Assembly: GCF_041381155.1 (NCBI RefSeq)
Contig: NC_091134.1
Location: 56,121,944-56,185,943 of the forward strand
Length of the DNA: 64,000 bases
Direction of reading: 5' to 3'
DNA from: Argopecten irradians
Taxonomy: Eukaryota; Mollusca; Bivalvia; Pectinida; Pectinidae
Part shown: piece by piece, positions 8,490 through 63,061 of the stretch
Position numbering within the stretch: position 1 is the first letter of the stretch
How the letters are laid out: each line of letters starts with the position of its first letter
Notes under the pieces: model-generated
What the model saw: the letters and a program-made list of their open reading frames with translations, nothing else
Databases searched by the model: none
What the model was told of the DNA's origin: nothing
Made by a program: the position numbers and the translations under genes

Positions 8490-8759
8490 TCTGGTCCAGA
8501 ATCTAGTAATTTCACTTAATTAATCACCAACACTTTGGAGGTACCCGTGTAACATTGTTCTGTGGTTTTTTTTCTTTGATTACATTTTTATAATATTCAG
8601 TAACTAGTCTATGATTTAATGTAAGTGTATGATGGATAATGTACTTTCCTGTTGAGTCTGAAAAATGGAGAAAAAGTTTCAATAATTATTATATAATATT
8701 ATACACAATATACCCAATTTTTATAAAAGCAACATCACAATCATACAGATTTTATCACA

Positions 8760-18244: not shown

Positions 18245-21200
18245 TTAACTGTTTGCCATGGCCTCCCTTACGTGTGGAGTGTTAAAGTCGATGTCAGGCC
18301 CAATGGATACAATTCGTGTCGGGTTGATTGATTCATGACTTGCCTGGAAAAAATGAAATGAAAGTGGGAGAGATATTAAATACTTTCATCCTACTATGAA
18401 GCCATGAATTCATACTCCTAAAATATGCCTTCAACCAAGAGTTTAACTAAATTATAAATTGAATTAATAAAATGCCAACATCGTTTTATTACCACGGTCT
18501 CAGATATGATTCATTGTAGTACAAGCCAAATGAATATATATAATTGGTGTTATGTAATATTTTAGTTTAATTACTTACCATATAATGTTTTGTGATGTGT
18601 TCAAAGTTGACAGTGTCAGCCACTCCTGGGATCTGGTACAAATCCCTCAGGTATCCCCACATGTTTGGGTAGTCCACTATCCGCTTCTTATTACACTAAT
18701 GTATACAAAGGAAACTGCTGTATTAGAACAACTATTCTTTTACATCGTATCGATAAAAAACAGGAATGATATTACGTAATATGTACATCTTTTTCTTCTT
18801 GGTAATTACCAACTTTATTATGTCAAATAATATGTTACACACCAGCTTGATCTTCATTTTGATAGCGTATACGCTACAATGAACTCAGTTTGCAGTGGAC
18901 ATATATGTACATGCATATATTCATACTACCATACACGCAGTCAAAATGAAGATCAATCCCTATATACGATTTGTATGATAGATATAAATACTGTAAAGCA
19001 TGCCAGACATACATATCGATATTGAGTTTTTTTCCTTCGTAGACTTCATGCTTTTTCGTTTGCATGCTTTGGGGGTCAATATCATTTGATTTAACACATG
19101 TTTGCAAGCTCCCTTGCGGAAAGGTATCGATTGTAACGTCATTATTTTGTGAGCGTAATTCACGTCGTTTTCTCCGAAAAATATGACGTTACGCTCGCAA
19201 ACACACGACGTCACAATCAATATCTACCCGCAAATGGCCGCAAGGGCAGATAGCTCTGTTATATGCAAATACGGAACTTCCTATAGTACTGCAAAATCAT
19301 AAAATTATTTTTTAAGAACAGTTGATGTTTATTCCTGTCTGTTCATTGATGCAAATATTCTTGTTACATCGTTTTAATATATAATAAATATATTTTCATA
19401 GCAAGACCATTACATGTACATAAGGAACATTTTCCCATTTGTGTAAGATAATAGAAATATTCCTGTTTAAACCGTACAATATGTCTGTATGGTTCAAACA
19501 CTAATTATGATTAAGTCATAATTGTTTGTTATGTGATTACCTTGAAATGTCCTACGTAGACTTTGTCAAAACGTATGAGGGTTGTAAAAAGACGGATATC
19601 TGCCTCCGTTAAGGTACTTCCAGTTAGATAGCGGGATTTAGAGAGGATACCTTCCACCTGAAGCAAGATAGCTAAATCATACGTGCTGTTATAGGAAAAA
19701 TACTGAAATTTTAAAGCACTTGTAAAGTATTATATATTATGTACATGTATATAACAGGCTGATGTGTTGCTTTTCTCTCTGAGGCTGTCGAGTCTGTACC
19801 AGAATTATAGAGAACACGTTCTTGGTTTCACACATCTTTATACAACATAGAATATTTATCATTGATTATTTCCTTTAGAATAAATAAATAAGTAGTAGTC
19901 ACTCTCTCTTTCACACGTTTCACACACACACAGATATATAAGCAAATTCGATGATAATATCAGTAAAGAAGTTACATTCATCCACATTAAAATTGTAGGA
20001 AATATGTTCTTGGTTTTGACATCCTTATACAGTATTGTTTTCTATGTTTGAGTTCATCGCACTAAAGCCTTTACATACTCACTGATCAAGTCGAAAATAG
20101 TGCAAGGGAGATCCATTTTTTATGACATAGTCGAAATTGAAATAAAAACATGTTTTAGTTCTATAGAGTTCACCAACGAAGGTGTTACAATGTACACTGA
20201 ACATGGGATCCTTTGTACCTTGTCGAGCCCCTGGAATACTTCCCGAACTGCTACGTCATATGCCTCTTGTGCTCGTGCAAATCCACTTCTGTACACACCG
20301 TTGTTGATCATTCTACAATTCAAAGATCTCTTATTAGTAATGCATCAGTTTTTGGTGCCCATAATATTTAAATATTGATGAATATTACAGAAAATCATGA
20401 TAGGAACAAAAAAAAAATTCACTATTATTCTTTTTATTATTATTTACAATTACAAGATCATTCCAATTCAAAATAGTTTTCGGCTCTAAGAGACCCATGT
20501 AAGAACATTGCAGAGAGTTAATAATTTGATTTCTACAGACCCTCCAAACAATGACAGAATTAAAAATATTCAATAAATTATTATTATCTCTGTTACATTT
20601 TCGATACATACGGATAAATCCATTCGTTTAATGCGTCGATTTCCTTCCGGAGGTTTTCAGGATAAAGGTCTAACTTCCGCTGTTCTACCGTGGTACAAAA
20701 AGCGTTGAATTCAGTATTCAGCATCCGGATAATCTCGCTTGACTCGTTGTTTACAATAGTCTTCTTTTGTTTGTCCCAAAGAACGGGAACAGTAATACGT
20801 CCGCCATAGTCTGCGAAAATGAGAAATTATACACGTTTGAATTCATGCCATCGGTCAATTGTACAAAGATGTACTTTATAATGTTGTTTTTATGGTATTG
20901 CCCTTGATGTCTTTTTAGAAAATAAAGCAAATTAAAAAACAAATCTTTATATTGGTCACTTCATTCCGAAATCAGAATTTGTATCTCAATATCAAAATCT
21001 ATCAGTTGGCGAGTTCGTTCAGGTTGAAAATAAAGTAGAAAGTCAAACTGTCTGAAACGAGGTTTAATGAGATGGAGAAAATTACAAATGTACATTTGTT
21101 TAGCTATTGAAACGATGCGATATATGGTGACTTGATAGAAGGACTTTGGGTATAAATTGTATGATTGGTGTTTGAAATTGACATTGTCTGAAACGCTTCC

Positions 21201-24200
21201 TTTCTGGGCAGTACAAATACCCCACACATACAGATACAACTTATTTTACATCAGCTAAAATGCATTGGCATGTTTTAATCAAAGACCATGACTACGCATT
21301 TTATTTTTAACAAGCCCGACAACATCACCAAAAACAGAGATTTGTATTATCACGCTACAGCTGAACTGACCTGGGTTCGCTTTATGATAAACCTCTCTCA
21401 TCCGTGAACAACCGTTGACCGTGTCCAGCGTACAATCCTGTTTCTGCATTATCAATATGGTAAAACAATGTAGGACTCTCACAGGTTTTAATAAGTAGAA
21501 TATTTACCTAATATATGGCATAATAATTAAATCTGCAAAATTATAAAAAAAAGTTGTGGAAAAACCAACAAATATTCAAAACTATCAATGAGAAGGAAGA
21601 AAATCTAAAACACGAAAATTGGCATTTAATTCTGATGGGCTTGATATTGTTTAATGCTATCTAAAACCGAGTCTAAATTGTTTATCTTGGGGAAAAATCC
21701 ACTACCTTTTATTAAAATGTACACAGAGTCACAATGATGCCAACCTTGTTTGTAAAAGACCATCCATGTCCATCCATGAACCAATCGACCACATCACACG
21801 AGATGACGTCCTCCAGTCCTTTTAGTTTTCTGACGATCAGAGTCCGGTGAGCCCAAGGACAGGCAAGACTGACATACAGGTGATACCGCCCAGCCTCTGA
21901 CGGAAAGCCAGACGATCCGTCCGCTGTTTAGTTGATAGAAAAAACGGCGAGGGCAAACGAAAAGGAAATCATTTAGAAAAAGCAACAACCATATAATACA
22001 TTATGTATATCAGTTAGTCTTTGATTTTGTTTTTTGTTCCTATTTTTTTATTCCCTACAAAAATAGAAAAAATGGTTTGGGCTTTAAGTTGCAATGACCA
22101 TATGCATTTGTTCGAAGTTTCCTGACTATCTTTTTGTGTTAAATACCATATGTTATATTACAAAGAGAAGAAAAACGCCCTGAAACATCCGTCTCGTTTG
22201 ATACATGCAGTGGTGAAATATCAAACTCTCCAAAACAACTTTCACCTTCATTTATAAGTTGCACATACACTAGAATTGAAGAAATGCGAGCGCGATATTT
22301 GAAATATCAAAACAGTACTCTGTATATAAATGATAAACTAACTAACAAAAAGTAAGGATATTAGGATCTTTCTTTACGTTAGTGAATCTTGTGATCGTAC
22401 GTCATGTCAATGTTTATAACAAAATGTTTGCTTCCATATGCTTTTTAGCTCACCTGGCCCGAAGGGCCGGTGAGCTTATGTCATGGCGCGGCGTCCGTCG
22501 TCCGTCGTCAGTCCGTCCGTCAACATTTCCTTTAAATCGCTACTAGTCATAGAGTTCTGCATGGACTGTAACCAAATCTGGCCACAAACATCCTTGGGGG
22601 AAGGAGAACAGAACTTATATAAATTTTGGCTCTAACCCCCCGGCGGCAGAAGGGGCGGGGCCCAATAGGGAAAATAAAGGTAAATCCTATAAAACGCTAC
22701 TTGTCCTAGAGTTCTGCATGGATTGTAACCAAATTTGGCCCAAAACATCCTTGGGGGAAAGGGGAACAGAACTTGTATAAATTTTGGCTCTGACTCCTTG
22801 GGGGCAGGAGGGGCAGGGCCAATTAGGGAAATAGAGGTAAATCCTTTAAATCGCTACTTGTCCTAGAGTTCTGCATCGATTGTAACCAAATTTGGCCCAA
22901 AACATCCTTGGGGGAAAGGGGAACAGAACTTGTATAAATTTTGGCTCTGACCCCCCGGGGGCAGGAGGGGCGGGGCCCAATAGGGGAAATAGAGGTAAAT
23001 CCTATAAATCGCTACTTGTCCTAGAGTTCTGCATGGATTGTAACCAAATTTGGCCATAAATATCCTTGGCGAAAGGAGAACAGAACTTGTATAAATTTTG
23101 GTTCTGACCCCTTGGGGGCAGGAGGGGCGGGGCCCAATAGGGGAAATAGAGGTAAATCCTATAAATCGCTACTTGTCCTAGAGTTCTGCATGGATTGTAA
23201 CCAAATTTGGCCCAAAACATCCTTGGGGGAAAGGGGAACAGAACTTGTATAAATTTTGGCTCTGACGCCCCGGGGGTAGGAGGGGCGGGGCCCAATAGGG
23301 GAAATAGAGGTAAATCCTATAAATCGCTATTTGTCCTAGAGTTCTGTATGGATTGTAACCAAATTTGGCCAGAAATGCATCCTTTGGGGAAAGAGAACAG
23401 AAAATTGTATAAATTTTGGCTCTGACCCCCCGGGGGCAGGAGGGGCGGGGCCCGATAGGGGAAATAGAGGTAAATCCTATAAATCGCTAATAGTCATATA
23501 GTTCTGCTTGGATTTTAACCAAATTTGGCCCAGAAACATCCTTGGGGTTAACAGAATTTGTATAAATTTTGGCTTTGACCCCCTGGAGCAGAAAGAGTGG
23601 GGCCCAATAGGGGAATTAGAGGTAAACAATTACCTTTATTCAGAACATTCCTAGGCATTACAAACCAGGTGAGCGAGACAGGCCCTCTGGGCCTCTTGTT
23701 TTTCAATGTTTTAGACCACCTTTACCGAAGCATGTGAACAGTGAGATTTCTCTGGATCTTTGTACCATCTTGTATCACTTACCAGTTATCCTGCAACGAA
23801 ATTGAACCTGATTAACCACTGTCATTACGATATATTACAATTGAGAACTATTAAGATGGTGACTTGATCAGTAGACTGCGATTCATTTCCCAGACGAAGG
23901 CTACGTAGCCGACAATTTTGAACAGAGACTGTTTATATTATGTATCTTGTAAATAATGTTCCCTTTGGAACACTTATGAGAAGTTAGAGAGAAAATATTA
24001 GTTATTTAAAGGGGTATTATTTTAGCGTTAATCGCATTATGACGTTTTACTATGGTACATTCGTTTGTTCTGCAAATTCTTTATAAAAAGAAATGCCTTC
24101 AATATAAAAATGGTGAGTGATGATACCTTAGCGATGACGCTTACTGTTTGTTTGAATAAGCTTCATTGTAGAACGACATTTTAAAGTTTTCATGTAATTT

Positions 24201-26315
24201 GAGAAGAATTAACTTCCACGTGACTTCGTTGAATAACTACTGATCATATATATTGTTACATTTAATTTAAAGTTATAAACAACTAAATGCATGCATATAG
24301 CAGCTTGGAATTCATTTGTACAATTTGCTTTGCCATGGTTATACATTACTATTTTCCCAATTATGTATAGCCATCACCTACTTATATCATTTCATCTGTC
24401 AAACACCTGAAAATGTCACACAACTATGGTAATCTTTGAAGTCAAAACCATTTTCAAATATTGAAGTCTTATGTTCAGTTAATTATGCTCAGGTAATTAT
24501 ATGCTCAGTTATACTATTAGTTATGCTCAGTCTTGTTAAGCATGTTTTCTTTGAAGCACAATAAGCAGATCATAAAATTGTCGAGTAAAGATAACTTGTG
24601 TGTATCGATAACGGCTGACGAATGTATGTGTATTACACGACAAGGTGAGTAATGATAACTTGTGTGTATCGATAACGGCTGACGAATGTGTATTACACGA
24701 CAAGGTGAGTAATGATAACTTGTGTGTATCGATAACGGCTGACGAATGTATGTGTATTACACGACAAGGTGAGTAATGATAACTTGTGTGTATCGATAAC
24801 GGCTGACGAATGTGTATTACACGACAAGGTGAGTAATGATAACTTGTGTGTATCGATAACGGCTGACGAATGTATGTGTATTACACGACAAGGTGAGTAA
24901 TGATAACTTGTGTGTATCGATAACGGCTGACGAATGTGTATTACACGACAAGGTGAGTAATGATAACTTGTGTGTATCGATAACGGCTGACGAATGTATG
25001 TGTATTACACGACAAGGTGAGTAATGATAACTTGTGTGTATCGATAACGGCTGACGAATGTGTATTACACGACAAGGTGAGTAATGATAACATGTGTGTA
25101 TCGATAACGGCTGACGAATGTGTATTACACGACAAGGTGAGTAATGATAACTTGTGTGTATCGATAACGGCTGACGAATGTGTATTACACGACAAGGTGA
25201 GTAATGATAACTTAATTGTGTGTATCGATAACGGCTGACGAATGTATGTGTATTACACGACAAGGTGAGTAATGATAACTTGTGTGTATCGATAACGGCT
25301 GACGAATGTATGTGTATTACACGACAAGGTGAGTAATGATAACTTGTGTGTATCGATAACGGCTGACGAATGTATGTGTATTACACGACAAGGTGACAAG
25401 CTAGAACGCATGTTGTTAAATGATTTCACGAACCGGAAAACATTTGTCCATAAAACAGGTCACACACAGTTGACAAATCAGAACGCATGTTTATTGTTAT
25501 ATGACACAGCATTATCAATTTTATCCGATCAACCGCTATAATAATAGGATTGGTATGAGAGAGTTAAGTACTTGTAAGTATAGCTGGACAGTAAACATCG
25601 GATCATCTGGTTGCTGCATTTATACATGAACTCAAAAATGATATCATCATTTAAAAAATGATAGCCCAAGTAATGATGATTACATCATTGTTAGATATCG
25701 TACTCAGCCTATCTAGCCAGGAATCTACAGAGGAATGGCTACATGTGTAAATGTGCTTTGTAATCAGTCGATAATCTAGAATGCACGGACTCGGTATTGG
25801 TTATTGCTAAAACTAACAATGTGTTTGGTTGAATATCTGGAACGTTCACTGCATGTGCATGTAACGTATCTCTTTACGGTTCAAAGGAGTAGCTAATCTT
25901 TAGAGCTTTACCGTTTACTCCTAATTATTTTTTATGTGGTGCTTGTGAATTTTAACAAAACATGCGACAAAATGTACGTTTCAGGAAGAAAAAACACCTG
26001 CAATTGACGGTTGTAAATTATATCACGCAAAATATGGCATATGTAGATGGACGCGTTTTATTGGTTTTGAATGCATCTAATCAAAGCTATATCATCTTCC
26101 CGAAGTGAGTTTTTTTCAAAGATTAAAATAACAATATTAGAGATATGGTTTTTAGCCCTTTTCCACGAATTAGTATGGCCTAAATACAACAACATAATAT
26201 GTATTCTCTAGTTAAATGTTCGTTTCATATCGAAATAACGACACATTTTCAACACTTACCAATCCCGGAAAGCTGATTTAGCTCGGATGAATTCTCCTTT
26301 GATTGAAGTGGACAT
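18245..26315 (-). CDS. Xi-class glutathione transferase (glutathionyl-hydroquinone reductase), copy A, 313 residues
   Basis: Nine coding exons: 26315-26260, 23790-23783 (8 nt), 21923-21745, 21443-21371, 20810-20612, 20312-20219, 19657-19541, 18695-18579, 18343-18245. All borders are GT-AG and the phases close to 313 codons plus stop. The thioredoxin-like half carries [17 protein letters not shown] with catalytic C43, then TVPVLWD (cis-Pro) and [11 protein letters not shown] for glutathione binding. The helical half carries [53 protein letters not shown] and [14 protein letters not shown]. Length fits bacterial YqjG (~328). The family reduces glutathionyl-hydroquinones to hydroquinones through the CPWA cysteine. 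It is the most diverged of the three tandem copies. Introns hold two minisatellite-bearing repeats and a CRE foldback. The start is the only ATG ahead of [13 protein letters not shown]. Confidence 0.95.
19104..19262. mobile_element. ~150-bp CRE-bearing foldback in GST copy A intron
   Basis: CCCTTGCGG (19111-19119) is inverted as CCGCAAGGG (19239-19247). Inside, ATCGATTGTAACGTCA faces GACGTCACAATCAAT, and GTGAGCGTAA faces TTACGCTCGC. The middle TTTTCTCCGAAAAATATGACG is shared with 45655-45790. Confidence 0.7.
22442..23701 (-). mobile_element. Hairpin-ended tandem-repeat element (HINE-like) in GST copy A intron 2
   Basis: Inverted relative to 5329-6725. Its 3' hairpin (AGCTCACC-TGGCCC, loop GAA, GGGCC-GGTGAGCT) lies at 22447-22476, followed by the CGTCCGTCGTCC tract. 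About seven ~158-bp monomers follow, phased on GTCCTAGAG at 22703, 22860, 23018, 23175 and 23333. The 5' end (GCTCACCTGG, then AGGCCC-AGA-GGGCCT and CTTGTT read inverted) closes at about 23701. Read in its own sense, monomers share GGCCCCGCCCCTC, GCCCCCGGGGGGTCAG and AAGGATG with those of 5329-6725. It ends ~80 bp from the 8-nt microexon at 23783. Confidence 0.85.
23783..23790 (-). CDS. 8-nucleotide microexon of GST copy A (GATAACTG)
   Basis: Flanked by TTTCGTTGCAG and GTAAGTGA on the minus strand. It supplies the bases needed to join ...CGG GAT TG to CG GAC GGA, giving RDWITADGSS, the segment expected in YqjG/ECM4 proteins. Without it the frame is lost. The same exon occurs in copies B and C. 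Confidence 0.92.
24588..25395. repeat. 60/64-bp minisatellite, 13 units, in GST copy A intron 1
   Basis: Units read GATAACTTGTGTGTATCGAT, AACGGCTGACGAATG, an optional TATG, then TGTATTACACGACAAGGTGA and GTAAT. Long (64) and short (60) forms occur in the order L S L S L S L S S S L L L; the eleventh has an extra 5 bases. Every unit contains AAG|GTGAGTAAT, a consensus splice donor, on the strand opposite to the gene. Unit-to-unit divergence is almost nil, so the array is young or being homogenised. Confidence 0.96.
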
Positions 26316-26652
26316 TATATCACCGTCTTTATATAGGTCCAGAGGCCACAATCTCCAAGATTGATGTAGTTTGTAATCTGTGCTGAAGTCTTCTGTTACC
26401 CGACCACGTGTTTGGCAAGTTTTGTTTACAATCGGGAGATATCACGTGACCAAAATATGCCGCACTTTATCGATACACTCGACATACAATGCATTAATTG
26501 GAATTCACTAGCTGTGTACAGATGTATGTATGCAAAAGCTACATTTATATTTATATTTTATGTAATCGAATAAGCATACATTTTGTAACATATTGACACA
26601 TTCAATCTCCTTACATAATCAGATAATGTCAGTCTGTCTGTGAAACCGTACA
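26316..26652 (-). promoter_or_regulatory. Upstream region of GST copy A with two CACGTG E-boxes
   Basis: CACGTG at 26405-26410 and at 26443-26448, 90-135 bp upstream of the ATG. The second is embedded in GTCACGTGAT, which matches the MiT/TFE (TFEB-MITF) and USF site. A TATATAAAG lies only 13-21 bp upstream of the ATG, too close for an ordinary TATA box unless transcription starts downstream of that ATG. Regulatory use is inferred. Confidence 0.4.
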
Positions 26653-27553
26653 CCGGATATTGCTACTTCAAGGGCTATTAACGATGAGCGGTATACGCAT
26701 ACGCATTAGTAATCTGATACGTGTAGTATTTGTAGCACCCTGTTTGACATAGAATGCAATATAATTGTATGGCACGTGTTTACCTGAGTGGCCTTGTATA
26801 CCATCGTAAAGATTGCGATTCGTCGGACCGAACATTATGGTGGCTGATTTCGATCATGTCGCACTATCACATTGGCCATATGCATGCCGCCATGCGACAG
26901 TGCGCCAAGTGAAGAGCGACACTGCGCCATGCGACAGTGCATCAATGCGCCATGTTACAAACACACTGTCACATGGCGCATTTTCGCTCTCCGTATGGAG
27001 GCAATGCGCCATGCGATAGTGCGATAATGCGTCATGCGAGAATAGGTCATGCAACAATGCGTCAAGCGAAGAGCGACAGTGCGACAATAAGCTATGGGAC
27101 AGTGCGATAATGTGCGAGGAGGTGAAGGTGCTATAATGCACTATGCAACAGTGCGATAATGTGTCATGCGACAAACACAATGTCGCATGCCATATTGTCG
27201 CATGGCGCATTGTCGCACTGTCGCCGAAATCAGCCATCATACTAACGACCTGCGTATGTTTTATTTCTACATTGTACATGAGTATGTTTAACCATATGCA
27301 GAGAAATCAGCGTACATGTACGTCTGTAACCAAGTAGGAGAGCATTTAGAGACCATATAACCAAGACACCCACAAAATCGTTCAGTATATTTGTACATTT
27401 ACATATCTGTATGATGTAAAAGTTAATGTTTTAGACGCGAAAATATCATATATGCAATATATCATGGATAAGGATTTCTCCCTTCAAATACACGTGTATA
27501 CGTATGCGTATACCGCTTATTGTTAATAACCATCATAAAATATTCGGAAGATG
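26653..27553. mobile_element. ~900-bp element with ~35-50-bp terminal inverted repeats
   Basis: Left TATTAACGATGAGCGGTATA then CGCATACG is inverted at about 27490-27535 (CGTATGCGTATACCGCTTAT, then TGTTAATAACC). The match may extend out to CCGGATATT/AATATTCGG. The element encloses a second, inner foldback (26838-27243). Lies between GST copies A and B; no coding capacity. Confidence 0.7.
26838..27243. mobile_element. Inner foldback built of degenerate TGCGAC/TGCGCCATGCGACA words
   Basis: Ends ATGGTGGCTGATTTCG and CGAAATCAGCCATCAT are inverted. The interior is almost wholly made of short words such as TGCGCCATGCGACAGTGCG and CAATGCG, present in both orientations, so the single strand could fold in many registers. 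Confidence 0.75.
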
Positions 27554-27764
27554 TCGTGATTCGACCATTAGAAGCATATTGTTTTCAATTGGTCGCTGAC
27601 CGGGTATCTCAATCGTTAATATAGAACATCCGCCTAGTGTTTGTAAGTCCCTGGTTAATACCCCTCTCTGGTCGTTACATTTTCTTTCTTCTCATCTGTT
27701 CATTTGTATACGTTCTATTGACCACAGGGGTATTATAATTATATGTACATGTAGCTACAGTCTA

Positions 27765-27917
27765 AAATGGATTGTGAACACTCAGGGTGGGTCCATATTG
27801 ATATAACCTGTACCAGTGCCTAACAACTGCCCCACATCGGGATTCGAACTCGCGACCCAGAGGTGGAGGGCTTGTGGTAATATATCGAGGCATTTTATCC
27901 ACTTGACCACCGCGTAC
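27765..27917 (-). mobile_element. tRNA-derived SINE
   Basis: On the minus strand an A box (GGTGGTCAAGTGG) is followed about 50 bases later by a B box (GAGTTCGAATCCCG), then a non-tRNA tail containing GTTGTTAGGCACTGGTAC. The promoter spacing is tRNA-like but no acceptor stem pairs, so this is a SINE. The 3' boundary is approximate. Confidence 0.75.
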
Positions 27918-27943
27918 AGGGATCCATATGCTATTTAAATGTA

Positions 27944-28111
27944 CAGGGTGTCCCTAAAACATGTCCCGACTTTGATAGGTAATAACTTTTGCATAACAAA
28001 ACTTTTTTTTTGGAAATTCAAAATGATTTGGAAAGCAAAAGTATCCAAGTTAGCTGAAAAAAGAGAGATAATTTGGAAAATTTAGGACTTCCTTTCACCA
28101 GGGACACTGAC
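27944..28111. mobile_element. Possible 167-bp MITE with CAGGGTGTCCCT ends
   Basis: TACAGGGTGTCCCT at the left faces AGGGACACTGACTA at the right, giving imperfect ~11-bp inverted ends with TA next to each. Interior is non-coding. Confidence 0.4.
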
Positions 28112-28592
28112 TACATATACGTATGTGTATATTAACCGTGACAATCGCAGAATAAAGGCACAATAAATGCAACTGTAATACAGGTAAAATACACTGTATT
28201 TACTTTATTATTTGACGTACACATACATATGACGAACTATTAACATACAGTTGCATGCTTCTTTTAGATATACATTTACCTAAACAATGAGAACTGTTTA
28301 TATTTCTAAGTATGCTAAATACAAATATACCGAAGAATGATTCTGACTGGAACTGGCTATATAAATAATATCTAATTTGGTGCAATTAATAAAATTAATT
28401 AAAAAAGAATCCTGTTTTCTGATATGATGGGATATGGGATACTCTTACTAGGCGTATCGAACAAGGGGCAGCATTCAATGGTTTGTTAAAAATGAAACGA
28501 TGATTATCGGGTCATCAGAACTCGGTAATGGATAAATATCATAAAATTTGAAAGATTTTTTTAATTGTTAATAATATCACTGGACATTTTAA

Positions 28593-28989
28593 AGGCCCAC
28601 TATCTTTCCGAAACGGCTTTTAATTTTTTTCATTGAAATGTAAAACGAGATTGATAAATTTGCAGAGTCGCAAAAATTATTAGCTTAACGCTGATACTAT
28701 ACCTGTAATAACCTTCTAAACAATTAGATTTAAATAAATTAAATTTTAATTTTCATAACGCGAGTCGTATTATGTTTCCCGCCGTCGTCCTAATTACCGA
28801 GCAGTAGTTGACAATCACTGTGACAGACGGCAAAACAGAGAAAGGTAGCTTCACTGTTTTCATAGATTTCGGAGGAAATCTTGCATTTTTTGGTATTGTA
28901 ACCTCATCTTAGGCCAGCATTTTATATTTCCTGGTGTTATTAACGTTTCTTAGAAACTTATGTTTTTGTTTCGGAAAGGTGATGGGCCT
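28593..28989. mobile_element. 397-bp TTAA-type MITE (piggyBac-like)
   Basis: TTAA (28589-28592) then AGGCCCACTATCTTTCCGAA at the left, and TTTCGGAAAGGTGATGGGCC, T, TTAA (28990-28993) at the right. TIRs are ~22 bp with few mismatches. The TTAA duplication points to mobilisation by a piggyBac-type transposase; no transposase is in the window. Confidence 0.85.
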
Positions 28990-29238
28990 TTAAGGTCTAG
29001 TCTTACCAGGTGGTTAGTGCAATCTAGATCCGCTTCTACTACCTGTTACTCCGAATACAGTCACTAAAAACTTGCAGTGTGAACAGATCTGATTGTAGAG
29101 AGATGCATAGCCATTCAAACCAACAAAAAATATGTCACTTTATCAAGTCATCATTGGCCAATACATATTTGCTATGGATTATATAATTATCTGCCTCGTG
29201 GTAATGTTCAGAATATATTCTATGAACATGCAAGTCTT

Positions 29239-32200
29239 CTAGTCATTTCGTTCTTGCATGGCCTCCCTGCCGTGTGGAGTAGTGAAGTCGATATCAGGCC
29301 CAATGGATACAATTCTTGTCGGGTTGATCATAGTGTGACTTCCCTTTGAACATATAAAAACATATATATAGAAACTATTACACATTTACACCCATATCAT
29401 ATGCCATATCAGCCCAAGGATTCAATATCAGACCGACGGTTTTAGTCTCATCGATGTCGGATATGCCATGTAATATGGATTTTACCACCTTTTATAAGTT
29501 AAGCATATATACTTCAAAATGATGTCTAGATCCAACAAAATGTTAATGAAAGTAAAAATGTCTGTAAACGCCCTGTTTTCCACGAGAAATAACGAATCTA
29601 TAACTCTTATTAAAATGTGTGTGCTTTTCCTGCTTTTGCTTATAATTCGCAAATTAGAACACATGACAGATCGATATATTAGGCTATGTCGCCTGAAATT
29701 TTGCAATTTACAGCAGTGTTGTTTTTCCAATTTCGTTTTATTGCACGCATAGGCATGTTGTATTGATAAGTGACCTACATTATCATGTCGGCATTGCATA
29801 AAGTAGCAAGGTTGGTGAGGAAAATCATCCTTTAAAAGTTTGATTAAGTATACTCCAGATTTCGAGAAACGAAACACGAAAACGTCTCCATGGGTTACCC
29901 GCGTCTAACACATAACCTAAGAAAGTAATAACGTCGACAATTGTGTATAGGAAATATATAGTGTTCTACTAATGTACCGTCAGAGTTCTTGTAATACCCG
30001 GTAGTAGACTTACCATATAATGTTTAGTGATGTGTTCAAAGTTGACAGTGTCGGCCACCCCTGGGACCTGGTACAAATCCCTCAGATATCCCCACATGTT
30101 AGGATAGTCCACAATCCGCTTCTTGTTACACTATAAAAATCAGAAATCAATAATTCAATAACCTTATGATCGTCATTGAATATTAAGGTGAAATTAAATG
30201 CATACGATTTCAAGCGAAAACTTCTAAGATAAAAATACGAAAGTGGGAAGTGTTACCTTTACCTAGTTTGTAGCAGAACTGACATATTCTGTACGCTGAT
30301 AAGTAATAATATAACAAGTAATTAAATTCCAGAATTACCTTGAAATGTCCTACGTAGACCACATCAAAACGTATCAGTGTTGTAAATAACCTGATATCCG
30401 CCTCCGTTAGGCTTTTGCCTGTTAGGTAGCGACTCTTGCTCAAAATGTCTTCTATCTGCAGGAATTAAGAGAAAGAATCTAGTAATTAAATAACTGTTTG
30501 TATATTGATTTAAACATAGAGATATGCCGTGGTTTTGATTGTGGCACGATAAATGCAATTGTTTTAATGATGGGTCATCATGCAAATGCATCTAAATAAT
30601 TGCACAGGCCAGTTTGTCACTGAAAACTAAAGAATAGGAACCGAAATGGCGAGCCGTGTCGCAACAGAGACAAAACACTTTATAAGAGGTCATATCACCT
30701 TGTCTAGTCCCTGGAACACATCCCGGACCGCTACATCATAGGCCTCTTGACTTGTTGCAAAGCCACTTCTGTACACACCATTGTTGATCATTCTAAAACA
30801 ATATTTGTTGATATTGGACTGATATGTTGACACACGTTTTAAAATATTAAATTAATGGTGGACATTTATTAACCAATGAATAAAGACAAATCTTATACGG
30901 TATTTTGATAATTGCAGAAAGAATCGCAGTTACCCATAGTCATGCAGAACGGACTATTACAATAAGGAATCTTATTTCAATATACAAGCCACGTCTACAT
31001 ACGGATAAATCCATTCGTTTACTGCGTCGATGTCCGTCCGAAGGTGTTCTGGATAGTAGTCTAACTCCCTCTGATCTTCTGTGCTACAGAAAGCGTTGAA
31101 TTCCGAATTCAGCATACGAAGAATCTCACTAGACTCGTTGTTAACGACAGTTTTCTTTTGTTTATCCCACAGAACGGGGACAGTGATACGACCGTCATAA
31201 TCTAAAATAGCACAAACCGTGTATTAAAGATAAGATGGTGGAATGAAATGGACGGAATTGTTTCGGGTTAAAAAGGATGTATACAACTTAGCAACTAAAT
31301 AATGGTCCTTGTACAAAAAATATAAATAGTTGTTTGAAAACAGCAAAGCTTAATCATACAAGTACAATCTTGCCCATTCGGCCTTGTGATATTCTCAAAA
31401 TCCTAATTTCCCCCTAAATGATTGTCCATATTTTATGTAATCCTATGTCCATAAGAAGTCCAGCATCGGCTTATCGTTACATGTAATACCCATCACAACA
31501 CGTATAGCTTCTTGAGTTTTTTACAATCAAGCATTGTCTTCCTTAGAATTACTTTTAATACCCATCACAACACTTATAAACCCATAAATAACAGTATTTA
31601 AACACTTTGCACTTGTGAAAAAAAACCATACCTGGGTTTGCTATTCGGTAAACTTCTCGTAGCCGCGAACACCCATTGACTGTGTCCAATGTACAATTGG
31701 GGCTCTGGACAAATAAATTATCAGCTATTACATTAGAAAATCAGATATCAACAATCTTATAGCCAAATCAAATTTTAACATACACCGAATAAGATATCAA
31801 CAATCATACTGACAAACACAATAATCACAATACCATTTGCAGTGATAACTGTATTGAAACTAATTGCTATTTTCAAACTGCAATAACAACGTAATGCTAG
31901 CTTGAACGTAGATTATGGAAATCTTACAGTGTACAGAGATCGGAGCGCCTCACAGATAGTAGTATTGGGTATTCAACTCCTACCTTATATTACTGATTTT
32001 ATAGGAATAGGCTGGAAATGATACCTTGTCAGAAAAAGACCACCCCTCGCCATCCAGAACCAAATCCACCACATCACACGAGATGACGTCCTCCAGTCCT
32101 TTGAGTTTCCTGACGATCAGAGTCCGGTGAGCCCAAGGACAGGCCAGACTGACATACAGGTGATACCGTCCAGCCTCTGACGGAAAGCCAGACGATCCGT

Positions 32201-33620
32201 CCGCTGTCCAAGTGATAGTTAATGTCAAGGTTAACCAATAATTGATCCAAACACTTCGAATCGATCGCCATTTAGGGTTATCGTATATTCGATTATTTTA
32301 TCTACCGTTATTTACCTTTGTATATGTTTCGTTGAATTGCAACCCGCATGTCTAATATTTTTGATTATTGCATTGTAATCGTAGGAGAAATAGCCTGCAT
32401 GTCTGTATAAAATGCAACACAACTATGTATATGACATTCACATTTCCGGGGTTCACTTTTTGAAAGGACTACGTAAAAATAAGATATAAACACGAATCAG
32501 AGCTTTGTGACAGAAAATATGTTGACGTGACAGGCGATGACATTGGAACTTTCTATGAAGTAGGTGATGAGATATTTCCACTAGGGTGTCACTTACCAGT
32601 TATCCTACAACGAGAAAAAAATGTGGTGATTGTCTCAATCCGAAACCAAACATGCTGCTTTAAATTACAGTGACAACAGTGACAGCCATACTACTTGTAT
32701 CCGGTACAGTATTGTTTTTTTGACATTTGCATAACGCTTTCTTAAATACATGTTAATAACATCAGCTACAATCCAATATGCGCATGCTTATTTTTATCTA
32801 AAAGTATACACTTGCAAAACAGCATACAGTAGCGAATACAAGCTGTACATATATTCCTATTCATGTTTTTAAATGTACAGGACCAATATTGAGAGTAATA
32901 TGAATGTAGGCTACAAGAATGATTTTAGTTATTTTGAAAATATCAAAAAATATTGAACACATAAATTGCATTGTTACACTCCCCAATTTCTAAACCACCA
33001 ATTGAAAAAAGATGAAATTAACACCAAGGGAGCTAAAGTCCAGTCAAATTTCTGCCATGCATTACCAGAAAAATATAAATCATCAGAAGTTTTCTATTAT
33101 TTGAATCATAATACATATAAGCAAACTCTACCAAAATATACCACCAGGAAAATAAGTTTAAATAATCTATTCCCGTAAATGATCTCTTGAAACATGTTAT
33201 TCTACTTAAAAAATACACAGTTCATACTGCTTATTTTTGATAACAGAAGCTAAAATATTCAAAAAGGTAGTCTTTCACAAACGGGAGAAGAAAAATATCT
33301 TGCAAAACATTACAGTTTGTTCCTCATTTATTCAACTATAGTATCTCTCGACGACATTACAGGCTGTCATTTTTAATTCCCAAATGATGCCAAGGTGGTA
33401 TCATTCAGATTAGGATTGAACAAGTCATAAAGTTGCATAATCATCAAACACATTTTGTGAGCACCTGGGCTAATATCATATGTAAACGTCAAAAGTGAAA
33501 CACATGTGCCGGTATAACATGTGGAACTACTTACCAGTCCCGGAAAACAGACTTGGCTCTGACAAACTCTCCTTTGTCTGAATTGTCTACCTTTAACAGT
33601 TTTGGATCAGTAGCCGCCAT
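29239..33620 (-). CDS. Xi-class glutathione transferase (glutathionyl-hydroquinone reductase), copy B, 325 residues
   Basis: Exons 33620-33535, 32604-32597 (8 nt), 32203-32025, 31704-31632, 31201-31003, 30792-30699, 30455-30339, 30130-30014, 29343-29239. Internal exon lengths (8, 179, 73, 199, 94, 117, 117) equal those of copies A and C. All borders are GT-AG. CPWAHRT places the catalytic cysteine at C53; [23 protein letters not shown] and [14 protein letters not shown] are all present. It has a slightly longer N-terminus ([19 protein letters not shown]) and C-terminus (REAMQERND) than copy A. The first ATG sits in GAAAATGGCGGC, close to a YY1/TISU start context. Same strand as A and C, with 2.9 kb to A and 2.8 kb to C, consistent with tandem duplication. 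Confidence 0.95.
32597..32604 (-). CDS. 8-nucleotide microexon of GST copy B (GATAACTG)
   Basis: Bounded by CTCGTTGTAG and GTAAGTGAC on the minus strand. Required to keep the frame through RDWITADGS, exactly as in copy A. Confidence 0.92.
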
Positions 33621-34486
33621 TTTCGTGTGTTTTAGTGCAAGTTCAACTCAACGTCAGTTTACCATAGAGAGTCCATCTCCGATTATACGTTCTGATCGAT
33701 ATATAAAAGACATACAATGTTATGTAAAACACGTGTAATAATGAATAGCAAATATGCTTACATGCAACGTATACACACACACACTATTGAGTTTCTATAG
33801 CTTGTGTAATTTTTGACTGTGTATAATATATAAAGAATTTGTGTACAAACCAACGACGAATATAAAAGTTCGAGCTAACGACATCAAAACGCCTTAATGT
33901 AGCTATCTACATATGTGCGTAGCTGTGTATTACACATACTCGTGTTATTATCCCATAGAATATATAATCGTAACTGAATGGTGATTTCTCATGAGATCGC
34001 TGCATATTAGATGATGAATTTGCATAAAAATTTACGACTAATTCATTAGGTATAATGCATTTTATTATGGCGGAAACACACCTACGAAAGACAATGCAAG
34101 ACATATGCAAACACAGCCGAACTCACCGACCACAAACAGGAAAGTACGTATCCCGTCCGATAACACACTAGCCAGCATTAACAAGCTTCTAATGTAAGTA
34201 GATTCAGATTGATTCTTTGTGCATATCCTCCTGGAGCTGTTATACCGAGCCTATGACACTGTAGATACTTACCGGTGACCCACGTACAATGTACGTGATC
34301 AACCTTTCGTTGCGGATGATAAACGGAGCGTGTAATAACATACTAGGTCTAGTTATAGAACTAGTGAAGTTGTGGTCTGCTCGGTAGACGTCCTGTTCAG
34401 CATACTAGTTTTCAGATCCATTAGATAGTTACGGCCTCCATACATATACGCTATTGATACGAATCGTGCTGATTCCTGACTTTGAA
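33621..34486. other. Upstream region of GST copy B, no gene recognised
   Basis: AT-rich. Contains a short (CA)n run (about 33772-33782) and a hairpin CACGTACA-A-TGTACGTG at about 34274-34290. No clear TATA or E-box pair like that of copy A. Confidence 0.5.
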
Positions 34487-34605
34487 CAGTAAGTAAAAGT
34501 TATTGCACAGCTTTCGAGTAATAAGGGTTTATTACTCCCGAGCGAAGCGAGGGGGTAATAAGTCCCGAGTGACGAGAAATCATGCAATAACTGACTTATA
34601 CTGCA
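34487..34605. mobile_element. ~115-bp foldback with AGTTATTGCA ends
   Basis: AAGTTATTGCA at the left faces TGCAATAACTGACTT at the right. Inside is a hairpin with perfect arms GAGTAATAA and TTATTACTC (34516-34537) and a CGAGCGAAGCGAGG word. Confidence 0.65.
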
Positions 34606-35131
34606 TGCTTCTTAACCTCAAACAAAAAGACAAGTTGATTGAAAAAATGCACACCTTTCTCTCCCTATACCCGTGACTCTCCCATTGTTCCCTATTTGAT
34701 ATACCTGTACCTATTATTCTGCAAAATGCTGCATCAAAATGTTTTTAGGAGATATGTACAGCATGAAACATTTGGATTTTTATCAAGCTCTGTTCAGCGA
34801 TTGCAAGAACAATCAGTAAATGGAAAAAAAAGTCGGAAACTTTAAATGTAAGTATATTTTATTTGAAATTAATTCCATATCTGTGCTTTGAATTGATAAA
34901 ATGCATATATATTAATACTAAGGCATCATTTCTTGATAAAAAAGGTTCATGAGTAGTGAAAACTTTTCCTTACAATACGAAGTTGCTATCATATGATAAT
35001 TAATTGGAAAAATGATTAATGAAGCTTTTTGAGGTGCATATAAATAAATGTGATTTTCTTTTTGTATTGTGTTTAAAAAAATTGTCAGCATTGGTTAGTT
35101 GGTCTATTGATTAATCAAATCATTAGAACCT
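34606..35131. other. Intergenic, nothing recognised
   Basis: AT-rich spacer. A plus-strand frame of 68 residues (34639-34845) has no recognisable domain and is not called. Confidence 0.5.
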
Positions 35132-35285
35132 TTGTTACCATGGTTGACTGCACACAAGTCCAGCCCCTTTCATGGTCATGTAATGATCCTGATTGGCCAT
35201 GGATGGGGGATTTAGCCACTTTCATGGTTAAGTAATCCTGATTGCCCATGAAAGGGAGTTATTGTGGACTCAACTGTGGTAACAA
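35132..35285. mobile_element. 154-bp MITE with TTGTTACCA ends
   Basis: TTGTTACCATGGTTGA faces TCAACTGTGGTAACAA (two mismatches). Inside, TTTCATGGT and CCTGATTG-CCATG words recur in both halves. Confidence 0.75.
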
Positions 35286-35319
35286 GACATTTATTTATAC
35301 GTGTACCGTTGTGAAGTAA

Positions 35320-35419
35320 TTTTACCTAATTCAGCACCAGAAATCATTAACATCTTTAAGCAAAGACTGGACAACCACTGGAAGAACCACGTCCTGAAAT
35401 TCCAACCATCAACCTAGTG
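35320..35419 (+). mobile_element. LINE 3' coding end, short remnant
   Basis: In frame: IINIFKQRLDNHW then KNHVLKFQPST and a stop at about 35417. The FKxRLDxxW motif is typical of the C-terminus of non-LTR reverse-transcriptase ORFs. Nothing upstream continues it, so it is a heavily 5'-truncated copy. Confidence 0.5.
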
Positions 35420-36439
35420 CAACTACTAATATATATGTATATCTTACTATGTAGGAATACTATTATATTATATATATACATATGCTAACGCAATCACACG
35501 TATAACTTTTAACCATTTATGTAAATATTACCATATATCTATATAAGCCAAATATGGCTTTCCAATGATGTTGGACTGATGAGATACTAATTCAGTAAAC
35601 ACTTACGGTGCTTTGAGAAAATGAAAAAAAATGTAAGTTTAGCTCTTACCAAGGAAATCAACTATACTAGAATTAGCTTCAAAATGTGTTGATTCTAGAA
35701 AGTGTTATTATAAGTAAAACAAGAACTCCACATGTTCAGTATTGCAGAACGTAATTGCTAATTAACTTGACACTCGATAATGATATGATTTTTATTGGTG
35801 GATGGTTAGCAATACTAAGTCCAATAGTACGAAATCGTTGCTTTGATAACCACCATCTGTCGAAATCTCCATCCGTCATCCAGTGCCATCTCACAGATAA
35901 TAACTATGATTCAACCACTCGATTCACCGGTAAATGCTCCGAATTTACCATAGATTTACATGACCGATTATTGTTGTTATCTCACCTAAATAAAAAGTAG
36001 ATTTGCTTAAAATGACGTTCTAACTTGACTCAAATCTGACCGTTGATTTGAAAACCTAGTCCTGACACTTGAACTTGACCCGGAGTTAATCTAGATTTGT
36101 TTGTCCGAGATTTGAACTTGACCCTGAGTTAATCTAAATTTGTATGATAGACCTGGATTTGTTTGAGTGAGATTTGAACCTGATTGGCATTAAACGTGGA
36201 TCTTTTTCAAAACGAAACAAACTTTTTTTTTATCTTTTATTACCAAAAGTATAAATAAAATGAATCAAGATACTTAAGATACATATTATATGACATGAAC
36301 GTAACATGGTATAAGGTAAGACATTGTTTGTCAGATATATATTTATAGCATAATTAACGCATCTAACGTACACTTGTACACAATCTTTTGATGTTTCATA
36401 AAATGTTTATTTACTTCAAATTAATGTTTTGGGTGTGTC
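35420..36439. other. Downstream of GST copy C, no gene recognised
   Basis: Contains a minus-strand AATAAA at about 36406-36411, ~30 bp beyond the GST copy C stop, a plausible poly(A) signal. At 36024-36190 the words TTGAACTTGACCCTGAGTTA and ATTTGTTTGAGTGAGATTTG recur in diverged direct repeats. Confidence 0.5.
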
Positions 36440-39400
36440 TTAGCTTCTGGACATAGCTTCTCTTCCATGTGGAATGTTAAAGTCGATATCGGGTCCAATA
36501 GATACAATTCTTGTTGGGTTGATCATAGCGTGGCTTGTCTGTAAGTAGAAAGGATAAAACAAAATGACATCTAGCATGAAGTTCCATTCAGATTATAACT
36601 ATTTGTGGGGAAACATAAACTGATTCATAAAATTTACTAACTTTTATCCAATGGAAACAATGTTATAATTTGCATGACATTTTGTATTATCTTATGTAAC
36701 GTCCTACGGCCTACGTCCTACGTCCAAAATCACGTAATTATATATAAACACCAACATTTATTGCATTCTACTTTCGTTCCGTATCTGCTTCAATATATGT
36801 TTTGGTACGTATACGGCCTAGCAACTCCTGTTTATATCAAGAACAGGTATGGCGTGACGGACGGAAGGAAGCAGTTGTGTTTTTCTGAAATTATATCTAA
36901 TACTAGTATATTTCACAAGCTTTAGCTGTAACATTCTTCCTCTATATTAACAATAACAAAGTCATTCCGAATTTAAGGTAACGGGGATTCGTTTATAGGG
37001 CAATGTAAACCGTTTTCCTCCTCAGCTCATTATCTGTATGTTTATAATAGTTTTACAGTGGTCTAAATAAGCCATGTTTATATTAATTGCGTGTCCTATC
37101 AATTAAAAAGTTTTTAACATTGTCATAATTTATCGTTATCATATTATATTAAAAATCAAATAAAAACAGACTTGAGTAAAACGTTCCTATTGTATTCGAT
37201 GTTTGTGTTTTGATTCAGTACTGCAGACTTCCCATATAATGTTTAGTGATGTGTTCAAAGTTGACAGTGTCAGCCACCCCTGGGATCTGGTACAAATCCC
37301 TCAGGTATCCCCAGATGTTTGGGTAGTCCACAATCCGCTTCTTGTTACACTGAGTAAAATGTTTAAAATGATACATGTGAAAACAACATTGGAATTAAGA
37401 TAAGACTAATTACAATACATTTATAAACAAACGATATGTAAATCAAAACAGACCATAGAATTAGCTCATGCATTCATACTCTTTCAGATCAGTAGCTTCT
37501 GCTTTACACTATCCTAGTTCAGACCATCAAGACTACTTCTGTAGAAAGTGACATTATGGCGAAGATGACCTTGGAATAGTGGATTTTGTTTGAAACCTAC
37601 CTTGAAATGACCTACGTAGACCTTATCAAACCGTATAAGGGTTGTAAACAGACGGATATCCGCTTCTGTTAGGGTCCCCCCAGTTAGATAGCGAGATTTA
37701 GACAAAACATGTTCCACCTGCAACATACCAACACACAGCCTTTAGATTTCCTTCTGCGGTGAAGCAAAAACCTATTGAACATGGATGTATAGACATGTAC
37801 ATATATAATAGGTACTTGATGATGTCATCATAGTAATGCAATCGTCAACACATACAAGCCTAATTCACACTGTGGATTAGCTATAATCGAATGATTGATT
37901 AGTAATAAGGATTAGTAGAGAATCTGAATACCTTGTCAAGTCCCTGGAATACCTCCCGCACCGCTACATCATAGGCCTCTTGGGCTGTGGCAAACCCGCT
38001 TCTGTACACACCATTGTTGATCATTCTGTAAGACCAAGAACACATACAAAATGAAATTATAGTTATATTTAGACGGTCGTGTACCATACTTTATAATCAA
38101 CTTCTTTCATTCCGAGATGACAGCCTCGGCTGGATCTAAACTAGCTTTACACCGTTGCATACGTTGTGAATAATTCTGATCTTCCGAGACACATGTCCGT
38201 ATCCTTCTTATAAGAATAGTGTCTTTGAGCTCCCGTACAAGTCATTTTGTCATAAATATTTAATACGGATAAGCAATTAATAATATGTTTAAATTGATAT
38301 TTTGTATCATAGAACCAATTACAGTGCAGGCAGCTTTTTAAGTATGAATCTTTGATCAAAGTTAATGATATATTTGTACGTACGGATATACCCATTCGTT
38401 TACACTATCGATATCCTTCTGCAAAGTTGTAGGATACAAATCCAACGATTGTTGTTCCTTGGTAGCACAGAAAGCGCTAAATTCCGAGTTTAACATCCGA
38501 ATAATCTCACTCGACTCGTTGTTAACCACGGTTTTCTTTTGTTTATCCCACAGCACGGGGACGGTGACACGGCCGTCATAATCTACAAAAGGCCAACAAA
38601 ACATTTTAACTGTTTCATATGACAAAATGAGTAATTTTTAAGTACATAAACTGTAAATATATATAAAATTGTGCAGTTAAGTTCTTAGCTTATATATGTA
38701 TCGCACTGTTACACTGCCATATATACCATTCAGCGAAATATCTTTCTCAACTGTAATAAAAAAAATCAGAATCATTGCTTTTGGTCATACTATCTTAGTA
38801 GAAAGTCCAAAAGTAAAGAAGAAAAACAATGTTAGAACAAAAAAACAACGCGGATGATTCGTTCTATATATATCAACTTTTCTTTTTATGCTTCAATATA
38901 CTTTTATACAAAAAAAGTATTTATAACAGAGAAAGATCAATTTAATAAATATATGTCTTGATAATGAAAGGTATGAAAGATTTGCTGACCTTGCCTGGCG
39001 ATGCGATAGACCTCTCGCAGTCGTGAACAACCGTTTACAGTGTCCAGAGTACAATTAGGTTTCTAGATCAAACAAAATCATAAATTCAATTAAATATACA
39101 ATTGTACATATCCTGTCTGTAAAAGACCAGCAACATAGTAATAAGAGTAATAGGACCTCTAACAATACTTATGTAATTAAATGGACATAAATTACGCCAT
39201 ATATTCGACAGCCATCAACCGAGAAAACCTATTGAACATTTTGAAAATTACTTTTATCAATAAATTAAATTTATAATTTTAGTGTGTGGTCAATAGGTAC
39301 AAAAGTAAAGTTCACCACTAGCAATATACATTACATATTTCCATACCTTGTCAGTAAAAGACCATCCCTCGCCATCCAGGAACCAATCCACCACATCACA

Positions 39401-40951
39401 CGAGATGACGTCCTCCAGTCCTTTGAGTTTCCTGACAATCAGAGTCCGGTGAGCCCACGGACAGGCCAAACTGACATACAGGTGATACCGTCCAGCCTCT
39501 GACGGAAAGCCAGACGATCCGTCCGCTGTTTAGATAGCAGGCGATTGTGTACGAAAATTAATATACATTTGTAAAAACTTTGAACATATCGATTTGATGA
39601 TGCCTGATCATCAATAAAAAGGAGAATGATACTTGAAGAAAAACAATTGCAGATTTACGTAGCATTCGTTGAAAAGTACTGGTATATTATGGCAAGGAAA
39701 TCAAGCAAACAAAATATGTTATACACGGTATCCGCCATAACACCTAGGTCTAATACTCATGTGACTGATTAACAATTTCCTACAAATGTGGCTTTCTGAT
39801 TATATTTATACTTCAAACATGTCATAACACATATACCAATCGTCTTGTTATGTAATAGCTGGATTTAGAATATAGTATTATAGATTTAAGATGGGTTTTT
39901 TTGTTGTTGTTGTTTTTTTTAGGGGGGGGGGTCTTCCTACTGAATCATGTAGTCCGTGACGTCATCATATTAAAGTCCTCAATTTCCACTTACCGGTTAT
40001 CCTAGAACAGAAAAAATATAGCAATTACTTTTGACAAACCTGCGATAATTCCTGCCAATGTCAAAGGTAATCATATGTAATTCTTGCTTTAAGATTATAT
40101 GATTTCTGATCATTCGCTAAAGTAGACTATACATGGATATCCATATACGTGTGGTGAACGTATCATTGACATATGTGCTACTGTGGAACCAATCAATATT
40201 AATGCCGCCTGTTTTATTTGGTAACGTGTTTGATCCATTCATGAAACGTTTTCCTGTATTAAGACGTCGATCGCTCTTGACGTCAGCACTGCACTCTACC
40301 ACCTGCACGTTATTGACGTCTATCAAGAGTATATTATATGACTTATTGAATGTTGAAAGATAAGACATATATACCAAAGTTTCCATCCTGTTTGACATGG
40401 GATCAATACCATAAAGTATCATCCCATAAACATGTGTTTTATCGAAAATAATAATCTGGTTATAATCGCTCTCTTCAGCCAATTATTTAGGCATGCACGA
40501 CATCAAAATGTTTATATAAAGTCCATATAGAGAAAAACATAACTGTCTTTTTATTGTAGTTTAAGATTTATACAGAATACAATCAATGTTAAAACACTTA
40601 TTTTTGTAAGATTGAGTTAAATTCTTTTATAGCGGAGTCAACCTATTGACTCGTAAATAATTATCTACAAAGAATCCTATCTTCTACTGACATTGATAGG
40701 ATATGGTAGAGAGCTAACATATATACAAACACATGTGGTAAAGAGTATAGGACTAAAAATTCATAACCAGCATTGTCACCTTGATGAGGATAACATGATC
40801 GACTCACCTGCCTACAAAGCTATGGGTTGGTATCAGCTGAAGAAAGAGAAAATTAAGCTTACCATTCACGGAAGGCGGAGTCCCACCGTACAAACTCCCC
40901 TTTACTGGAGAGGGCCGCTTTATATTCGACTGTTTGTTTGTGGGCGGCCAT
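36440..40951 (-). CDS. Xi-class glutathione transferase (glutathionyl-hydroquinone reductase), copy C, 324 residues, non-canonical last donor
   Basis: Exons 40951-40863, 40001-39994 (8 nt), 39525-39347, 39062-38990, 38582-38384, 38025-37932, 37717-37601, 37349-37233, 36538-36440. Domain order matches copies A and B, with catalytic C54 in [25 protein letters not shown] and [14 protein letters not shown]. The oddity is the donor after HITKHYM: it reads GGAAGT where A and B have GTAAGT, one substitution. Without splicing the protein would end ...HYMGSLQY and lose the last 32 residues, although that last exon is intact and conserved. Residues ARQ replace ANP at the exon 4/5 junction. An in-frame upstream ATG at 41071 would add 40 residues. 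The gene is a close relative of copy B. Confidence 0.9.
37231..37233 (-). other. Altered splice donor of GST copy C exon 8 (GG for GT)
   Basis: On the minus strand copy B reads TATATG|GTAAGTCT and copy C reads TATATG|GGAAGTCT. Exon and intron bases on both sides are otherwise the same, so a single T-to-G change removed the canonical donor. It could be a real mutation, a polymorphism, a rare non-canonical site or a base-call error. Confidence 0.85.
39994..40001 (-). CDS. 8-nucleotide microexon of GST copy C (GATAACCG)
   Basis: Bounded by TTCTGTTCTAG and GTAAGTGG on the minus strand. It differs from copies A and B only at a synonymous position (ACT to ACC, Thr), as expected for a selected coding exon. 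Confidence 0.92.
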
Positions 40952-62608: not shown

Positions 62609-63061
62609 ATAAATTTCACTGAGTGGTGTATGCAATTGAAAATCACTTTGAAGCTATACAGTCGATCTGTTTGTATTGGGCCTGATAATGCTGTTGCAAG
62701 TGACTGGTAAAACATGTTAAGGGGACAAACGCAATCTCTGAAGGAAATACACATGTAAAAGGTATCTGTATTTCAACAAATGTTAGATATATATGTAAAA
62801 GTTGTGTTTTCCACAAGACAAGTTCATTTGAAAACATGGTGAAGTACATTTGTATATATTTAACCCTATTTGCTGGAGTACTGATGACCTTATTAGAGGT
62901 ATATGTTCTTGTGTCTAATATAATATATACCCAGCATGCCGTTCCCTCTTTCCTAAAACCTGCGTTACCAGTCTTGTTTTCAGACCAAATGTAAACGATT
63001 TGTTTGTATAGGTCCAAAGTATTTTTTGTTTGCATACTCCACTCAGTGTAATTTATATTGA
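62609..63061. repeat. Inverted repeat pair (~30-bp arms, ~390 bp apart)
   Basis: ATATAAATTTCACTGAGTGG and TGTATGCAA at 62609-62637 face TTGCATACTCCACTCAGTGT and AATTTATAT at about 63032-63061. A 157-residue minus-strand frame (62643-63116) lies mostly between the arms but shows no known domain. Could be a degraded foldback. Confidence 0.6.

Follow-up and report, generated by a model that had tools for sequence, protein, structure and literature searches.

Three tandem Xi-class glutathione transferase genes of Argopecten irradians with a putative 8-nt coding microexon

The window analyzed here, 64,000 nt of Argopecten irradians DNA (contig NC_091134.1, positions 56,121,944 to 56,185,943), carries three tandem genes on the minus strand, which we call copies A, B and C. 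Exon placement from homology and GT-AG borders gives nine exons per gene, and exons 2–8 are equal in length across the copies (8, 179, 73, 199, 94, 117 and 117 nt). The intron phases of these models are 2, 1, 0, 1, 2, 0, 0 and 0, and the predicted proteins of 313 (A), 325 (B) and 324 (C) amino acids are each read from one open frame. The coordinates of the features are as follows:

18245..26315, minus strand: copy A coding region, 9 exons, 313 aa
26260..26315, minus strand: copy A exon 1, from ATG, 56 nt coding, ends ..RD-TG before GTAAGT
23783..23790, minus strand: copy A exon 2, putative microexon GATAACTG, phase 2 in, phase 1 out
21745..21923, minus strand: copy A exon 3, 179 nt, starts CG-GAC-GGA, contains CPWA
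21371-21443, 20612-20810, 20219-20312, 19541-19657, 18579-18695, 18245-18343, minus strand: copy A exons 4-9
29239..33620, minus strand: copy B coding region, 9 exons, 325 aa
33535..33620, minus strand: copy B exon 1, from ATG, 86 nt coding
32597..32604, minus strand: copy B exon 2, putative microexon GATAACTG
32025..32203, minus strand: copy B exon 3, 179 nt
31632-31704, 31003-31201, 30699-30792, 30339-30455, 30014-30130, 29239-29343, minus strand: copy B exons 4-9
36440..40951, minus strand: copy C coding region, 9 exons, 324 aa if the GG-donor intron 8 is removed
40863..40951, minus strand: copy C exon 1, from ATG, 89 nt coding
39994..40001, minus strand: copy C exon 2, putative microexon GATAACCG
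39347..39525, minus strand: copy C exon 3, 179 nt
38990-39062, 38384-38582, 37932-38025, 37601-37717, 37233-37349, 36440-36538, minus strand: copy C exons 4-9
24583..25396, no strand: minisatellite, 64/124-bp unit, 94-96% matches, in intron 1 of copy A
22528..23626, no strand: tandem array, 157-bp x 7, in intron 2 of copy A

Part of the extra intron length in copy A comes from the minisatellite (814 of 2469 nt) and the 157-bp array (1099 of 1859 nt). The array is the core of an insert at 22450–23690 whose ends, judged by eye, are TCACCTGG... and ...CCAGGTGA, and which in our view resembles the tandem-cored mobile elements of molluscs. Elsewhere in the window, where 4 of the 13 long reading frames were scanned, a frame at 8061–8519 (minus strand) has a BIR (inhibitor of apoptosis) domain (E 3.5e-26). 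Another at 62643–63173 (minus strand) has part of a TMTC O-mannosyl-transferase domain (E 7.3e-9) and is probably one exon of a larger gene. No tRNA or Rfam match was found in the 64 kb.

Exon 2 of each gene is an 8-nt block, GATAACTG in copies A and B and GATAACCG in copy C, bordered by AG and GTAAGTG. A sequence-only reading of this DNA had claimed such blocks in all three GST copies, and each is found where it was placed; the flanking introns also have the sizes that it gave (2469 and 1859 nt in A, 930 and 393 nt in B, 861 and 468 nt in C), and the sole change between the copies is synonymous as claimed (ACT to ACC, both Thr). The same reading held that the exon is needed for the frame and for the motif RDWITADGS. 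The first part stands in all copies and the second in A and B, but copy C reads REWITADGS. In all three models the 8 nt link a phase-2 intron to a phase-1 intron and complete the peptide W-I-T-A: after splicing, the TG that ends exon 1, the G-ATA-ACY-G of the microexon and the CG that starts exon 3 would be read together, placing W-I-T-A in a conserved stretch ahead of the thioredoxin domain. In 3/3 copies the exon is internal, lies within the 30 nt that define a coding microexon, and has GT-AG introns on both sides.

The pattern AG-GATAACYG-GTAAGT occurs 3 times in the window, all on the minus strand, compared with a mean of 0.00 in 100 shuffles. Within the joined exon 1–exon 3 interval of each copy, AG/8 nt/GTRAG has a single instance, the microexon itself, while shuffled intervals contain on average 0.25 (A), 0.059 (B) and 0.085 (C); none of 1000 shuffles per copy produced an 8-nt exon of this form that encodes W-I-T-A. 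The window and interval shuffles together rule out a chance match. A scan of each copy's exon 1–exon 3 interval for in-frame mini-exons of ≤60 nt, set between AG and GTRAG, likewise gave a single candidate, again the microexon, and hence no larger or different mini-exon within those limits. Note that the 15-mer GATAACYGGTAAGTG occurs 6 times in the 845.8-Mb genome, 3 of these in the window, and that its reversed control also occurs 6 times: since the string is no commoner than its control, the case rests on context, i.e., on place and frame.

All three copies have the Pfam domains GST_N_2 and GST_C_2; copy B, the one copy run against NCBIfam, had no match there. The best PDB match of copy B in phmmer is 3r3e (YqjG), with E 1.1e-116, followed by 4uss (5.1e-104), 6gzf (8.6e-104), 3ppu (9.4e-103) and 6gc9 (1.1e-97), all of them solved Xi-class members, of which we take 4uss to be from poplar, 6gzf from Natrialba and 3ppu from Phanerochaete. 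The catalytic cysteine lies in a CPWA motif in 3/3 copies, a motif that is strictly conserved in glutathionyl-hydroquinone reductases (GHRs) according to an excerpt of PMC5063366. NNGVY, RFDxVYVGHF and HYMxSH are likewise found in 3/3 models, in C only if the GG-donor intron 8 is removed; by our own reading these would correspond to Y224, Y301, H345, Y346 and H350 of ECM4. The tyrosine triad and two active-site histidines of the Xi class are thus present in all three models, for C under the same condition. Judged by these matches, domains and motifs, the three genes are Xi-class GSTs, or GHRs, and their products would be expected to have the enzyme activity.

The alignment to YqjG is gap-free across the residues encoded by the microexon (FR.WITADG), and the same holds for a wider sample. 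Among 34 homologues, residue 29 is W (32) or F (2), residue 30 is always I, V or L, residue 31 is T in 29, and none of them has an insertion or deletion between residues 27 and 34 or a gap at residues 27–35. The sample comprises 5 of the 12 PDB matches together with 29 bacterial rows, the latter taken from 32 loci (the 25 best-scoring of 91 matching genomes, with 200 searched, plus 7 others) after L026 was left out for want of a usable frame, L032 because it had been read in a wrong frame, and L027 as a duplicate of L020; because best-scoring loci were chosen, it favors close relatives.

The genome is metazoan by its 42 Wnt matches, Wnt not being known outside animals; a control set of 14 genomes had none, but says little, since the eight of them with names are prokaryotes. 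At least 150 C1q matches agree with a bivalve, a group rich in C1q, and mitochondrial COX1 gave no match in the assembly. The copies look like the animal's own genes, as they have several exons and their contig spans 68 Mb or more. Searched against the genome, copy B has 22 matches and exon 3 has 3, all of them inside the cluster, so that no copy was found outside it. In a midpoint-drawn tree of 37 rows the three copies form one group (100/99), which joins poplar and two fungi weakly (59/93; the eukaryote sample is three PDB rows) and lies outside the proteobacteria sampled. A recent transfer from the sampled bacteria is therefore unsupported. A viral relative was also looked for, and no peptide-pattern match was found in viral contigs, in a search that detects close relatives only.

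If the microexon is left out of the models, the frame shifts and a stop follows after 61 (A), 71 (B) or 72 (C) codons, at the same exon 3 site. Skipping would then be expected to give a non-functional mRNA through this frameshift and early stop. Neuronal-type microexons mostly keep the frame, and the multiple-of-three length that goes with the neuronal switch type is not found here, as 8 nt are skipped only at the cost of the frame. An alternative is that the microexon is a regulated cassette, which would give the enzyme when included, and when skipped a stop, destruction of the mRNA and a gene turned down. That the stop falls at one site in all copies (codon 62, 72 or 73) agrees with this, as does the figure, given in part of PMC8042270, of 68.9% alternatively spliced among 411 internal Drosophila microexons. 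However, the common stop simply follows from the conserved exon 3, and the splice sites point the other way.

To rank donors we counted matches to CAG/GTAAGT out of 9 for the 24 donors of the three genes. The microexon donors score 8, 8 and 8, compared with 5–8 (mean 6.1) for the other 21, of which two also reach 8/9. Relative to the upstream exon 1 donor, the microexon donor is stronger in A (8 versus 7) and C (8 versus 6) and tied in B (8 versus 8), and the same part of PMC8042270 describes donors stronger than the upstream ones as the pattern of constitutive Drosophila microexons. We consider a regulated cassette unlikely. A near-consensus 5' splice site (8/9) might instead compensate for an exon that is too small for exon definition, which would fit a microexon that is constantly included in the mRNA. 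The microexon acceptors are ordinary, with 10 (A), 13 (B) and 14 (C) pyrimidines of 17 and a mean of 11.1 for the others. As a separate observation, the exon 3 donor of copy A (21739–21747) is weak, AAG/GTTGGC, the corresponding sites being AAG/GTATCA in B and AAG/GTATGG in C.

The frame could in principle also be kept by joining exons 1 and 3 directly, for which we found 1 (A), 11 (B) and 9 (C) in-frame possibilities, none of which keeps the motif. One of them deserves consideration: in 3/3 copies the usual exon 1 donor could be spliced to an acceptor that lies 55 nt into exon 3, which would give a protein that lacks the microexon but keeps the catalytic Cys. Such a protein would have 22 residues replaced by one Cys, among them the highly conserved R44, Y45 and H46 (R44 is kept in 36/36 and Y45 and H46 in 35/36 aligned homologue rows, before row removal), and we regard its use as very improbable.

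The exon 8 donor of copy C (37227–37235) reads ATG/GGAAGT, compared with ATG/GTAAGT in A and B. If this intron were retained the protein would end HYMGSLQY and lose the second active-site His, and exon 9 of copy C still reads like exon 9 of A and B. The GG donor may be a recent mutation, a rare donor or an assembly error. It could also be taken as a sign that the genes are decaying copies in which an 8-nt match is meaningless, but the frames are open across the modelled exons, the active-site motifs searched for are present in 3/3 models, and the genes are under purifying selection. Specifically, the 269 codons that start at the end of exon 1 and include exon 8 give a dN of 0.08–0.09 and a dS of 0.64–0.77, with pairwise dN/dS of about 0.11–0.14 among the copies (for single exons taken alone, synonymous divergence is at saturation in some). 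Decay is accordingly hardly credible. By comparison, blastn at E 0.01 aligns none of the introns of one copy with those of another, yet the 8-nt exon is identical at 8/8, 7/8 and 7/8 positions; it has been kept while the introns around it diverged.

Exons 3 and 8 have diverged less at synonymous sites than exons 4–7, with the caveat that the exons were grouped after the rates had been seen. At fourfold sites the differences in exons 3+8 versus 4–7 are 4/42 versus 32/57 for B–C (Fisher p 1.7e-6), 8/42 versus 31/56 for A–C (p 3.5e-4) and 10/42 versus 26/53 for A–B (p 0.019). The closest pair also varies by exon, being B–C in exon 3, A–B in exon 5 and A–C in exon 7. These shifting pairs suggest exon-limited gene conversion, or alternatively a constraint on silent sites. 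Because the exon identities suggest sequence exchange between copies, the three are not fully independent witnesses. More speculatively, the 8-nt exon might be a control point, where skipping turns the enzyme off, and the low synonymous divergence of exon 3 might reflect signals that hold the tiny exon in place; we think this unlikely.

The reading that we prefer is that each gene is a nine-exon Xi-class GST with an 8-nt exon 2 that is most likely spliced in constantly, to which we assign a probability of about 0.92 from frame, homology and splice sites. The 8-nt exon is, in other words, very probably a constitutive coding microexon.

If so, automatic annotation of these genes could drop the conserved WITA stretch or break the frame. 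The genes would also be nine-exon animal examples of a GST class that is called absent from animals in parts of PMC5063366 and PMC6345682. A bivalve protein already bears the YqjG name, since a glutathionyl-hydroquinone reductase YqjG is listed in a quagga-mussel proteomics table (PMC11036304). With a single 8-nt exon set among introns that do not align between the three copies, the cluster may further serve as a natural test of how the smallest exons are recognized. Searches for microexons in bivalves found no literature, the microexon papers on molluscs had none on GST by title, and no GST microexon appeared in the titles or opening abstract lines of the papers listed for microexon and glutathione S-transferase. 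The broad Xi-class and bivalve literature searched gave no direct precedent.

Compared with known systems, the proteins are most like E. coli YqjG (PDB 3R3E/4G0I), with 59% identity over 302 residues and the GST_N_2/GST_C_2 domains and the CPWA, tyrosine and histidine motifs in common. The genes here are, however, animal genes of nine exons, one of 8 nt, and their products lack a 6-residue insert that is present in YqjG and most of the bacterial rows aligned. Plant microexons of 1–15 nt are conserved and often missed in annotation, according to sections of PMC8831610, and resemble the present exon as tiny conserved coding exons, but the gene here is from an animal and the word glutathione is absent from the main text of that paper. 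The constitutive microexons of Drosophila share the small size (≤30 nt) and the strong 5' splice site, but an exon of 8 nt is at the lower limit of those that standard mapping detected in PMC8042270. The SRRM3/4-dependent neuronal microexons of vertebrates, as portrayed in part of PMC12626424, are alike in being very small, but differ from an exon of 8 nt, which is no multiple of 3. Very small exons are an established kind, and the microexon described here adds another case.
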